Positions 2,342 to 9,303 of a DNA stretch of 9,303 nucleotides are shown here, piece after piece. The notes beneath the pieces are model-generated. The model was given only the letters and a program-made list of their open reading frames with translations, made no database searches and was not told the DNA's origin. The DNA comes from Bacilli bacterium (GTDB lineage Bacteria; Bacillota_I; Bacilli_A; RFN20; CAG-826). How positions within the stretch are numbered: the first letter of the stretch is position 1; every line of letters starts with the position of its first letter. The DNA lies in the NCBI GenBank assembly GCA_024413875.1, contig JAKSVY010000056.1, forward strand, positions 1 through 9,303, given 5' to 3'. The position numbers and the translations under genes are program-made.

Positions 2342-3541
2342 ATGAAAACAAAAGATAAAGAACAAAAACATGTTCTTCCAAGACATAGGTTCTGGTTCTT
2401 CATACTTCGCCCATTTGCTTATTTAGTATCAGCGAAGTATCACTTCAAACCAAAAGTAACTAGATTAAAAAAGAATAAACCTTGCTTAATTCTATCTAAT
2501 CACCAGGCTGCACTTGATCCAATCTTCTTAGCGCTGTCATTTACTGGACCTATTTACTTTGTAAGTAGTGAACATATCTTCCACAAAGGCTTTGTTTCTA
2601 AATTGTTAGTGCATTGCCTTGCACCTATCCCAAGAAGAAAAGGTGACTTAGATATTAAGTTCATTATGGAAATGATAAAAGTATCTAAGGAAGGTGGAAA
2701 TATCGCTATCTTCTTAGAAGGAAATAGAACTTGGACAAACTCACAATTCCCAATTCCGAGATCCGCTGAAAGTTTAGTAAGGAAATTAGGCGTAGATCTT
2801 GTCTTATTTAATCTCAAAGGTGGCTATGGTGTTGATCCTCGCTGGTCAAATGTTGTCCGTAAAGGAAAGTTCACCAGTAAGGTTGCAAGAAGATTATCTG
2901 CTGAAGAGATAAAAGAAATGAGCGATGAAGAATTACATAATGTAATTGTTGACGCTCTTGACGTTAAAGATGGAATAGACGGAAGTTTATATAAATCTAA
3001 AAAACGTGCTGAACACTTAGAAAGAATGATGTATGTCTGTCCTTGTTGTAAGGAAAAGAATACACTTCGAAGTGAAGGGATTTACGTAACTTGTTCAAAG
3101 TGCAATGAACAAATTGAATATACCGAAAACTTAAAACTTCGTTATCAAGGTAGTGATCATGAATTAAAAGATTATTACAAGATGCAATTAGACGAAGTTA
3201 AAAATGCAGTTATCGAAGAAGATAAAGAAATCTTCTCTGATGAAGGAATTGTTCTTTATGATCAAACTACTGGAACTCGTGTCTTAGTTGATCAAGGAAG
3301 AATGTCTCTAACTGATAAAGCAATCCATGTTAACGACTTTAAATTGGATTTAACAAAAATTACCTCATCTAGCTTAATCGGTGGTAATATGATAACCATT
3401 AACACTGATAAAGTGGCGTACATCGCTATTGGCGATGAAAGATTTAACTCAATGAAGTATGTTCATTACTTCGGAAGGTTAGTACCAAGTATTAAGAATA
3501 GGAGTGATAATTATTATGGGCTTAATATATTCGAACATTAG
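2342..3541 (+). CDS. PlsC-like 1-acylglycerol-3-phosphate acyltransferase with zinc ribbon
   Basis: The N-terminal half is a PlsC/LPLAT acyltransferase, the family that adds an acyl chain to lysophosphatidic acid at the inner membrane face in phospholipid synthesis. Motif I is NHQAALD (His54, Asp59, the HX4D catalytic pair) and motif III is FLEGNR (Glu126-Arg129). PRRKG and the following basic stretch resemble the phosphate-binding region. A hydrophobic segment near residues 17-31 could anchor it. At 399 residues it is far longer than a typical PlsC (about 200-250). After residue 210 comes a four-cysteine zinc ribbon (CPCC at 233-236, CSKC at 251-254), then about 130 residues of unrecognised alpha/beta sequence. 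The ATG at 2342 is preferred over a TTG six bases upstream; neither has a Shine-Dalgarno sequence. The gene overlaps the following symporter gene by 26 bases, indicating one transcript. Exact acyl acceptor is inferred from family only. Confidence 0.85.
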   Translation: MKTKDKEQKHVLPRHRFWFFILRPFAYLVSAKYHFKPKVTRLKKNKPCLILSNHQAALDPIFLALSFTGPIYFVSSEHIFHKGFVSKLLVHCLAPIPRRKGDLDIKFIMEMIKVSKEGGNIAIFLEGNRTWTNSQFPIPRSAESLVRKLGVDLVLFNLKGGYGVDPRWSNVVRKGKFTSKVARRLSAEEIKEMSDEELHNVIVDALDVKDGIDGSLYKSKKRAEHLERMMYVCPCCKEKNTLRSEGIYVTCSKCNEQIEYTENLKLRYQGSDHELKDYYKMQLDEVKNAVIEEDKEIFSDEGIVLYDQTTGTRVLVDQGRMSLTDKAIHVNDFKLDLTKITSSSLIGGNMITINTDKVAYIAIGDERFNSMKYVHYFGRLVPSIKNRSDNYYGLNIFEH

Positions 3542-4913
3542 TTCATTCGGTGATACATTCGTTTGGACAATCCTTAATCAATTCTTCTTTATTGGCGCAT
3601 TCCTCTTTGTTGGATGGCTTATCTCACAAATTCCATTTGTTAAGAAGAGTTTAATTCCTACCTCTCTTTTAGGTGGTTTAATTGTCATATTACTTAAGTT
3701 TGTTCCAGCATTTGATGATTTAATTAACTATGACGCTATGGAAATCATCACTTACCATTGTTTAGCTTTAGGCTTCATTGGTATGGCGCTTAAGAAAGGT
3801 GATTCAAACAAAAAGAAAGTATCAGTTGGATCAATCATTGACTCTGGTTTATTAATTGGTGGTTCTTACGTTGTTCAAGCTATCATTGGCTTAGTTATTA
3901 CAATTGTTATTGTTGCAATTGGTGGTGTAGCAACACACCTTATCCCAGCTTCAGGTATCCTTTTACCTTTGGGTTATGGTCAAGGTAGTGGACAAGCTCT
4001 TAACTACGGTAAGATCTTTGAAACAGACTATGGTTTTGAAGGTGGCTCAACATTCGGTTTAAGTATTGCAACAATCGGCTTCTTAGTAGCAGCTGTTGTT
4101 GGTGTTGTTTACACAAACATCTTACGTAGAAAAGGTAAAACAAAACAAACATCTGAAACAATTATTGAAAACTATGAAGTTAAAGATTTCGTTAAAGAAA
4201 ACGAATCTCCAACAACTCCATCTATTGATAAAATGACAATTTGCTTAGTCTTTGTCTTCTGTATCTATGGCTTAGTTTACTTAGTAATGAGGGCTTTCAA
4301 TGTTGGCTTATTATGGGGATTCAACTTCCTTCTTGGTGTTATCTTCGCTACATTAACAAGACTTCTTATGAACTTCTTACAAAAGAAGAAAGTCATGAAG
4401 AAAGAACAATTAAACAATTATTGTTTAGACAGATCATCTAACTTCTTCTTCGATGTTATGATTATCGCTGGTTGCTGCGCAATCGACTTAAATCAACTTT
4501 CATCAATGTGGTGGCAATTAATTCTTGTTTGTCTCCTTGGTGCAGTTGGAACATTCGTCTTCATTTACTTTGTTTCAAAAGAAATCTACAAAGGCTACGA
4601 AACAGAAGGTTTCTTATCAATGTTTGGTATGCTTACAGGTACAGCTTCTTCAGGTATGATTTTACTTCGTGAAGTTGACCAAAAATACGAAACACCTGCT
4701 GCTAATAACTTAGTTTATGGTGGTATGCCTGCTATCGCAATTGCTGGTATCTTACTTCTCCTTTTAGGATATGCTCCTAAAGGAATGACAGAAGCATTAA
4801 TTTCTCTTGCGGTATTCGTAGCAGCGTTCGCAATTATTATGGTTGCCCTTTATAGAAGAAAAATCTTCAAATTTAAAAAGAAAAATAAAAAAGAACCTGA
4901 ATCAAAGGAATAA
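3516..4913 (+). CDS. GltS-type sodium/glutamate symporter (ESS family)
   Basis: This is a 465-residue polytopic membrane protein of the ESS (glutamate:Na+ symporter) family, which imports glutamate with sodium. The family's inverted-repeat signatures are both present. LPLGYGQGSGQALNYG (about 151-165) is followed by GLSIATIGF, and the second half has GMLTGTASSGMILLREVD (about 371-388) followed by TPAA. About ten or more hydrophobic helices span the protein. A cytoplasmic charged linker at about 205-240 (Lys/Glu/Thr rich) separates the halves, and the C-terminus is a Lys-rich tail. It is somewhat longer than the E. coli GltS of about 400 residues. The start is ATG 3516, preceded by TAGGAG at 3499-3504 with an 11-base gap; the GTG at 3504 would lie within the ribosome binding site itself. 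The start lies inside the acyltransferase gene. Substrate could be another dicarboxylic amino acid. Confidence 0.88.
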   Translation: MGLIYSNISSFGDTFVWTILNQFFFIGAFLFVGWLISQIPFVKKSLIPTSLLGGLIVILLKFVPAFDDLINYDAMEIITYHCLALGFIGMALKKGDSNKKKVSVGSIIDSGLLIGGSYVVQAIIGLVITIVIVAIGGVATHLIPASGILLPLGYGQGSGQALNYGKIFETDYGFEGGSTFGLSIATIGFLVAAVVGVVYTNILRRKGKTKQTSETIIENYEVKDFVKENESPTTPSIDKMTICLVFVFCIYGLVYLVMRAFNVGLLWGFNFLLGVIFATLTRLLMNFLQKKKVMKKEQLNNYCLDRSSNFFFDVMIIAGCCAIDLNQLSSMWWQLILVCLLGAVGTFVFIYFVSKEIYKGYETEGFLSMFGMLTGTASSGMILLREVDQKYETPAANNLVYGGMPAIAIAGILLLLLGYAPKGMTEALISLAVFVAAFAIIMVALYRRKIFKFKKKNKKEPESKE

Positions 4914-7425: not shown

Positions 7426-7454
7426 TTGACAAATATTAATAAATTAATAAAAAT
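7426..7454 (+). promoter_or_regulatory. Promoter of the riboswitch-adhesin unit
   Basis: A perfect -35 TTGACA lies at 7426-7431. The -10 is less clear: TAAAAA (7448-7453, 16-base spacer) or AAAAAT (7449-7454, 17-base spacer) fit the position. Transcription would begin near 7460, right at the 5' edge of the aptamer core. This is the only gene unit in the window with a consensus -35. Confidence 0.55.
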
Positions 7455-7461
7455 ACTTTCA

Positions 7462-7530
7462 GATAAAGGCAAACCTATAGTAATGTAGGGGCGCAAAACT
7501 ATAGGATCCAGATATGGATAGCCAGCTACC
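7462..7530 (+). ncRNA. Cyclic di-GMP-I (GEMM-I) riboswitch aptamer
   Basis: Three conserved core blocks of the GEMM-I aptamer occur in order and at the right spacing: GATAAAGGCAAACC (7462-7475), GGCGCAAA (7490-7497) and GGATAGCCAGCTACC (7516-7530). Between the first two, CCTATA (7474-7479) pairs with TGTAGG (7484-7489; one T-G pair) around the GNRA tetraloop GTAA, the P2 hairpin of this class. The P3 region can close CTAT (7499-7502) with ATAG (7518-7521). The usual GACGC is GGCGC here, and I could not find a convincing 5' partner for the basal P1 helix. The aptamer ends 12 bases before the start codon of the next gene, with no terminator hairpin in between, so control of translation initiation is more likely than termination. 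Ligand class is from motif recognition by eye. Confidence 0.87.
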
Positions 7531-7542
7531 TAACAAAAGAAT

Positions 7543-8346
7543 ATGAAATTAAAGAAAATTGTTATCGTTCCTGGATTTATTTGTATATTTGCTAATTTGA
7601 TTAGCTTATTTACTTTTACTTATTCTTGGTTCGCTCACAATAATCAAGTTGAAGCAACTGGTATGCAAGTTAAATGTGAAGATCCACATATGCTTCAATT
7701 TTCGTATAACATTTATGAATTTAATATGGAAGCTAACCAAGGAGCTAAGACTGAAACTTTCGAACTTGGTAGCTATGATAAATTTATTGAATCTCGTAAC
7801 GTTAAATTAGCTAAGATTTTAGAAATCACAATCAGACCTGCTGAAGGCGTTGATTATACTGAAAACCAAACATTAACAGTTGAAATACCATGTACTTCAA
7901 CATTTTTAGGTTCTGATAATAAGATTGCTTCAAAGATTTCTAACCTCGTTACATTTAAGACAGCAAGATTTGGTTATCAACTCAATGATACTTATTCATA
8001 TGATGTAAGCGATATTTATGGTAGTGATAATCTCCCTACAAGTGACAACACTTTCTATACAAAGGCTGTTGAATATTTTAACAATTGTGATTCACAAGAA
8101 TTCGTTTCAGACCCAACAAATAAAGCATTAAGTCAAGTTCAAAAAACTGATTTAATTACTTTCTCTAATATTGAAGTTCCAGCCCACTTCCAAGAATTAA
8201 AAATCGCTGTCGAATACACATACTCAAAGACATTAGTAGATTATTTCTACGATAATAATGATGAAAAGATTGAAATTAAGGACTTAACAGGAGCAGCCAT
8301 TCCTTTCACCAATGATATTGAGTATTTCTTGCTAAACCTCATCTAA
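7543..8346 (+). CDS. Exported SWF-motif protein, TasA/camelysin-like, under c-di-GMP riboswitch
   Basis: The 267-residue protein has a short basic start (MKLKK), a hydrophobic segment at about residues 6-27 and then YSWFAHNNQVEATGM, with S-W-F at 28-30. This layout resembles SipW-dependent exported fibre proteins (TasA, camelysin), where a short motif with aromatic residues follows the hydrophobic stretch, and the many SWF proteins of Mollicutes-like Bacilli. The remainder is rich in Thr, Ser, Asn and Tyr and looks beta-stranded, without an enzymatic motif. No LPxTG sorting signal and no C-terminal membrane helix is visible. A TAA in frame at 7531-7533 fixes the start to ATG 7543. There is no real Shine-Dalgarno sequence, only the A-rich AAAAGAA. 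It lies 12 bases after the cyclic di-GMP aptamer and one base before the next gene, so the two are co-transcribed. Fibre or adhesin function is inferred. Confidence 0.8.
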   Translation: MKLKKIVIVPGFICIFANLISLFTFTYSWFAHNNQVEATGMQVKCEDPHMLQFSYNIYEFNMEANQGAKTETFELGSYDKFIESRNVKLAKILEITIRPAEGVDYTENQTLTVEIPCTSTFLGSDNKIASKISNLVTFKTARFGYQLNDTYSYDVSDIYGSDNLPTSDNTFYTKAVEYFNNCDSQEFVSDPTNKALSQVQKTDLITFSNIEVPAHFQELKIAVEYTYSKTLVDYFYDNNDEKIEIKDLTGAAIPFTNDIEYFLLNLI

Positions 8347-8347
8347 T

Positions 8348-9303
8348 ATGAATAACAAAACTAAAGTAGTATTTACCGTATTTACATCGATTTGCTCCCT
8401 GTTAATGGCGAGCATTTCTGTTTCTTTTGCGTGGTTTAGAAAGAACTATAACATGGTAAATTGGGACGTTAATGGTTCCGTTTTAGCACAATATTTCGAC
8501 AAAAGAGAATTCAACGCTTCTAGCGATCCTATCGGCACAACAGCAGACAATCCTTTTGTCATCACAACGTACCGTCACTATGAAAACTTGGTAAAACTTC
8601 ACCATACAACTTTTGAAAACGCAAGAGGTGAAACTATTTCGTTTTCTGACCAACATTACTATTTTGAAATTGGTAAACAATATGAAGAAAATGGTGACTT
8701 TTTAGTTCAAGAATTCACTGATTTAGGTGCTCAAACAGGTAACAAATCAAGATATCTTAATCTCAATGCTTTAGATCCTCTTGAACCAATTGGTTCGGAA
8801 GAACACCCATTCGTTTCAACGATTGAAGGACACGGAATTACTGTCAAAAACTTCACAGTAAGCACAGCAGCGGATACCACAAATGAATATTATGATTTTG
8901 GTATTTTTGGTTATGTTGGAAATAACGATGCTGATAACTCTGGTAATATTTCTAATATTTACTATAGTGATTTCAAACTTGACGCTGAAGGATTAAACCC
9001 AACACATGCAAACGAAAGAGATTACCACGTAGAACACAAGAGAAACTCTTTTGTTGGTTATTTATGTGGCCACGTTTATGACGTTAATTCATTCTCAAAT
9101 GTTTATATTAATAACTGCTCTATGAAGGGTGGTAGTTCTCAATATGCATCCGTAAATAACTATGGCTATTTCGGCTTTGTTGAATTAGACAATCAAGGTA
9201 CGACAGCTGGTAGTGGTAACAACTATAACTTTGACCTTAATAGTAGTGCAATCTATGACTACTTTAATGAACACTATGATGAAGAAGAATTCACCTATGA
9301 TGA
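8348..9303 (+). CDS. Large exported SWF-motif protein with beta-helix, adhesin-like body (3' end outside window)
   Basis: The frame is open from ATG 8348 to the window end: 318 codons plus two bases, with no stop. The N-terminus parallels its neighbour, with a hydrophobic segment at about 8-27 and FAWFRKN, A-W-F occupying residues 28-30, the same register as S-W-F upstream. Residues 68-85 (NPFVITTYRHYENLVKLH) and 153-172 (HPFVSTIEGHGITVKNFTVS) resemble the opening of GLUG-type and pectate-lyase-like beta-helix surface proteins. Repeated coils of the form D-F-G-I-F-G-Y-V, I-S-N-I-Y-Y-S-D, N-V-Y-I-N-N-C and Y-G-Y-F-G-F-V continue the pattern. This suggests an adhesin or other cell-surface protein. 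The start follows the previous stop in the arrangement TAATATG and lacks a Shine-Dalgarno sequence, pointing to translational coupling. Total length and any C-terminal anchor cannot be known from this window. Confidence 0.8.
   Translation, partial: MNNKTKVVFTVFTSICSLLMASISVSFAWFRKNYNMVNWDVNGSVLAQYFDKREFNASSDPIGTTADNPFVITTYRHYENLVKLHHTTFENARGETISFSDQHYYFEIGKQYEENGDFLVQEFTDLGAQTGNKSRYLNLNALDPLEPIGSEEHPFVSTIEGHGITVKNFTVSTAADTTNEYYDFGIFGYVGNNDADNSGNISNIYYSDFKLDAEGLNPTHANERDYHVEHKRNSFVGYLCGHVYDVNSFSNVYINNCSMKGGSSQYASVNNYGYFGFVELDNQGTTAGSGNNYNFDLNSSAIYDYFNEHYDEEEFTYD

Follow-up and report, generated by a model that had tools for sequence, protein, structure and literature searches.

The window, the 9,303-nucleotide stretch of DNA analysed here, probably contains a class I cyclic di-GMP (c-di-GMP) riboswitch of ordinary specificity, which forms almost all of a leader of about 84 nt in front of an operon encoding two or more exported proteins and is likely to act on translation. 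Such a switch would link an uncharacterised family of exported proteins to a c-di-GMP response. c-di-GMP switches preceding surface proteins are already known; a search of titles and the beginnings of abstracts, covering few subscription journals, returned among the matches listed no report of TasA-like or SWF proteins preceded by a c-di-GMP riboswitch. The features of the region are as follows.

7426..7454, +, candidate promoter TTGACA-17-AAAAAT (10 of 12 consensus matches, perfect -35)
7459..7534, +, c-di-GMP-I (GEMM-I) riboswitch aptamer (Rfam RF03167 match and own covariance model)
7468, +, G equivalent to the ligand-contacting G20 of Vc2 (alignment and spacing)
7474..7489, +, stem P2 with GUAA (GNRA) tetraloop (Rfam match and fold prediction)
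7474..7505, +, alternative hairpin CCUAUAGU/ACUAUAGG, 7474-7481 with 7498-7505 (fold prediction; putative anti-aptamer)
7495, +, A equivalent to the ligand-contacting A47 of Vc2 (alignment and spacing)
7514..7546, +, possible upstream ORF of 10 codons (MDSQLPNKRI), with AGGA at 7503-7506, 7 nt before its ATG
7543..8346, +, ORF1, 267 aa, hydrophobic N-terminus followed by SWF, orphan family (ORF list and homology searches)
8348..9301, +, ORF2, at least 318 aa, open at the contig end, hydrophobic N-terminus followed by AWF (ORF list and homology searches)

The aptamer is a true class I c-di-GMP riboswitch aptamer of the ordinary type. When the window was compared with all Rfam families, nucleotides 7459-7534 of the plus strand matched c-di-GMP-I-GGC (RF03167, clan CL00126) with 58.2 bits (E 5.5e-12), 0.8 bits below the gathering score of 59. 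The tool suppressed two overlapping matches of lower score from the same clan(s), RF01051 presumably among them, and its output gives no score for RF01051. Apart from these, the Rfam comparison yielded up to E 1 just a plastid element at chance level (E 0.7). A covariance model built from 12 other aptamers, with the window excluded, gave a single match, 7458-7533, with 63.8 bits and an E-value, roughly calibrated, of 7.5e-18; the structure derived automatically for this model comprised 8 base pairs (P1b and P2), and the P3 part was scored by sequence alone. The claim of the first-pass annotation that a GEMM-I aptamer lies directly before the two ORFs is upheld by both models, with the reservation that the Rfam search assigns it to the clan slightly under the cut-off of the matching family. 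The aptamer shares with the c-di-GMP-I class (RF01051/RF03167, CL00126) the core sequence, the P2 stem with its GNRA loop, the contact G and A at standard spacing and the location in a 5' leader. It differs from the class by its short P3 and by standing in a leader that is nearly aptamer only. Two pairs were predicted for P1.

The 12 comparison aptamers were obtained from viral contigs by two pattern searches, and all of them are recognised by Rfam. Every column invariant among them is kept in the window. A loose aptamer pattern yielded at least 120 stretches; the strict pattern applied to those loci left 5 places in 4 loci, all of them already obtained by the first pattern search. Two of the source contigs, both from IMG/VR, have features of their own. 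One, of 4.6 kb (L006), carries two class I aptamers (1691-1771 and 3597-3677), each followed by a similar large ORF, of about 490 residues as far as the sequence was read. The other (L130) carries a class I aptamer (1589-1667) and, about 1.4 kb apart from it, a Pistol ribozyme (160-229).

The leader consists essentially of the aptamer. The candidate promoter is the only promoter-like site with a perfect TTGACA -35 box, and transcription starting from it would begin at about 7461, on the 5' border of the aptamer. Since seven promoter-like sites were found on the two strands against 7.1 expected in shuffled sequences, the argument for this promoter is its position and its -35 box, not the count. 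The end of the Rfam match is separated by 8 nt, and the last predicted pair (7531) by 11 nt, from the AUG of ORF1, which is located in an A-rich stretch without a Shine-Dalgarno sequence. No terminator-like site was detected on the plus strand between 7250 and 8500, the sole one found being on the minus strand. Because the leader is nearly all aptamer and no terminator-like site precedes the start codon of ORF1, control is probably exerted at the level of translation.

Two further elements of the leader were considered and rejected. The stop codon of the possible upstream ORF overlaps the ORF1 start as ATGA. This arrangement was spotted post hoc; a similar layout occurred in 3.0% of 20000 shuffled leaders, and in 13.9% if the Shine-Dalgarno requirement was dropped. 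By eye, the AGGA of this ORF is buried by both of the folds described below. The upstream ORF is probably a product of chance. A hairpin enclosing the ORF1 start was also discarded, as 61% and 25% of shuffled sequences folded equally well.

In its lack of a terminator-like site the leader resembles that of Vc1, the class I switch of the Vibrio cholerae gbpA gene. As far as the accessible part of the report on Vc1 goes, this aptamer also lies at the start of the transcript, there before an attachment protein, and likewise there is no apparent terminator or anti-Shine-Dalgarno sequence (PMC4744006). The Vc1 motif, in contrast, is confined to the 5'-most 111 nt of a 225-244 nt leader, more than 100 nt from the start codon, as compared with 8 nt in the window. 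How a terminator-free class I switch works is described as unclear for Vc1 in the same source, and the compact leader found here would make a test case for such a mechanism.

The anatomy of the leader leaves the direction of control unfixed. The class I switch could lower expression, the bound aptamer blocking the ribosome so that c-di-GMP means off, as might suit proteins needed while cells are motile or dispersing. We consider this possible but less likely than not by a clear distance, and it overlaps the preferred explanation, whose direction is not fixed. The closeness of both the Rfam match and the last predicted pair to the AUG would suit such blocking. On the other hand, c-di-GMP usually increases the expression of adhesin-type proteins, an objection tempered by the uncertain identity of the proteins encoded here. 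Precedents, as given in the parts of the two sources available, point both ways: class I switches of Clostridium difficile let c-di-GMP lower flagella and protease (PMC11477304), whereas Vc1 raises gbpA (PMC4744006). By analogy with Vc1/gbpA and with the C. difficile adhesins, we lean only slightly towards a switch that is on at high c-di-GMP. The C. difficile regulon, in the available portion of its description, resembles the present case in that c-di-GMP riboswitches control surface proteins of a Firmicute, including, under class I, one putative adhesion protein; it differs in that class II governs the adhesins CD2831 and CD3246, and class I switches precede flagella, protease and small proteins (PMC11477304). 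The C. difficile riboswitches were compared with the window in sequence through family scans alone.

Fold prediction revealed a second structure that competes with the aptamer. The alternative hairpin has eight continuous pairs, excludes stem P2 and gives the segment a folding energy of -11.2 kcal/mol. In the leader alone its predicted pair probability was 0.99, as compared with 0.002 for P2; folding energies of this kind omit tertiary contacts and the ligand. In growing chains ending at 7490, 7496, 7500 and 7503 P2 was formed, and in the chain ending at 7505 the alternative hairpin. Between the corresponding strands of the 12 comparison aptamers the longest helix had 2-5 pairs, so that the eight-pair alternative is peculiar to the window in this set. 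When the matching short segments were folded, P2 was kept in all 12. When whole aptamers were folded, however, two of the 12 (L129 and L131) also lost P2 to other pairings, hence the computed misfold alone proves little. The P3 strand involved is a common one: three of 156 cross combinations likewise reached eight pairs, all of them with the P2 strand of the window itself. The hairpin, judged from a single leader, is a candidate anti-aptamer suggested by modelling.

A switch built on this hairpin would need no separate expression platform. The ligand-free RNA would tend towards the alternative hairpin, in which the 5' strand of P2 is tied to the 5' strand of P3, and c-di-GMP, if bound, would capture the aptamer fold. 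The captured fold, ending so close to the ORF1 AUG, would then probably alter the access of ribosomes. In its complete form (the 8-bp P2/P3 anti-aptamer taking over at about 7505, the ligand capturing the aptamer fold while the RNA is being made or shortly afterwards, the ribosome reading the outcome at the AUG lacking a Shine-Dalgarno sequence 8 nt away, and an exported family of three known sequences as the output) the proposal is speculative, and we would put it forward only as a tentative scheme.

The same predictions could be read as signs of an inherited aptamer that has lost its switching function. For this there is a precedent in Bc1, a class I aptamer which, in the accessible part of its description, interacts with the ligand and hardly changes expression in its host (PMC11218506), and both the two predicted P1 pairs and the dominance of the alternative fold in silico would be in keeping with it. 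The conservation in the window of all columns that are invariant in the comparison aptamers argues against decay, and we regard this reading as improbable.

The ligand-binding positions point to c-di-GMP itself as the ligand of the riboswitch. The distance from G7468 to A7495 is 27 nt, which is also the spacing of G12 and A39 in Vc1 (PMC4744006) and of G11 and A38 in Bc1 (PMC11218506), residues that the available passages of these papers equate with G20 and A47 of Vc2. By the same spacing argument C7492 fits the interhelical C; G7521, assigned by eye, fits as well. For the third contact, C92 in Vc2 numbering, the candidates are C7529 and C7530, a C in either case. To judge from the sequence, the contact bases G20, A47 and C92 are all represented in the window. 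The base exchange that marks the GGC variant, G replacing A47 as in the RF03167 consensus, is absent, the window having A7495.

The GGC variant was reportedly described by Weinberg et al. in PNAS in 2017, and its name we take to stand for the three contact bases. All 12 comparison aptamers have A at the A47 position, in part by choice, as the first search pattern required A and the second allowed A or G. Nevertheless four of them (L003, both aptamers of L006, and L130) score best with RF03167. The RF03167 label therefore does not follow the binding site; that the window scores best with this family is more likely due to its short P3. As the contact bases match and the label is not tied to the binding site, ordinary c-di-GMP specificity is to be expected. 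That the aptamer is a variant of the GGC kind sensing another molecule, as its best Rfam match being RF03167 and not RF01051 might suggest, is very unlikely in view of the A at the decisive position and of the A-bearing aptamers that share this best match.

The two genes downstream of the aptamer are separated by 1 nt. In Kyte-Doolittle windows each of their products has one hydrophobic N-terminal segment, which ends in [S/A]WF, and none past residue 45. The predicted ORF1 protein is probably exported or membrane-anchored. In the first-pass annotation the two had been taken for exported proteins, one of TasA/camelysin-like layout and the other with beta-helix adhesin-like repeats. Their exported appearance stands, whereas the fibre and beta-helix identities go beyond the evidence. 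Neither protein had a Pfam-A match up to E 10 or an NCBIfam match up to E 1. For ORF2, the only DNA repeat was one pair of 12-mers and the structure model of the incomplete protein had a pLDDT of 33, which, together with the Pfam result, does not bear out a beta-helix with repeats. An attempt to treat ORF1 and ORF2 as paralogues was abandoned, their N-terminal stretches aligning only at E 38.

ORF1 has two relatives among 5.8 billion proteins, making a family of three known sequences here. One of them (P0003, a 58% relative) is encoded on a 15 kb contig and the other (P0002) on a 1.2 kb contig. Both were found by a word-based search, which requires shared 5-residue words and limits candidates to lengths between 0.55 and 1.75 times that of the query. 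The same search with the contig-cut piece of ORF2 returned no relatives, longer full-length ones escaping it. No relative of ORF1 was found in the scans of genome contigs and of viral contigs or by tblastn in plasmids, and none of ORF2 in phages. A profile of ORF1 matched in PDB, up to E 10, only Cas12f and a ribosomal protein, and no TasA-type chain. The best Foldseek match had E 7.2e-3, none reached E 0.001 or better, and TM was at most 0.26 among the 50 matches listed. With regard to the jellyroll of TasA, the fold match was weak and untied. The accessible parts of two reports describe BsaA of C. perfringens and TasA of B. subtilis as proteins of fibres or polymers that depend on SipW (PMC7395162, PMC9674648). 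With these ORF1 shares the N-terminal hydrophobic segment and a predicted beta-rich outer part; unlike them, it gave no sequence match to a curated family, TasA/camelysin included. No signal peptidase was detected among the nine window proteins scanned. Of the proposed TasA/camelysin-like layout only the hydrophobic N-terminus is left beside that fold match. On the whole the regulatory reading of the first-pass annotation was right in outline, while its fibre and beta-helix identities and its c-di-GMP lifestyle switch reach further than the data.

Seven phage records matched the leader in a blastn search, each over a short piece and at chance level (best E 0.04). By tblastn, plasmids yielded no more than remote homologues of two housekeeping genes, with about 44% identity at best. 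The gene upstream of the aptamer, in the opposite orientation, codes for a serine dehydratase, of which the genome contigs scan showed no relative. The GC content of the window is 33.4%; of eight stop codons seven are TAA and one is TAG, and no in-frame TGA occurs in the window genes. Inspection by eye showed that four genes (2219, 2342, 5026 and 7310) lack a Shine-Dalgarno sequence and have a -10-like box only a few bases upstream of the ATG, a pattern that would fit frequent leaderless transcription in this organism; the aminopeptidase and symporter genes do have Shine-Dalgarno sequences. The predicted symporter (3516-4913) scored almost alike as a sodium/glutamate symporter (27.3 bits) and as a 2-hydroxycarboxylate transporter (26.5 bits). 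The product of 2342-3541 is an acyltransferase (PF01553 on residues 41-152), whose further half has the cysteine motifs CPCC and CSKC, perhaps a zinc ribbon.
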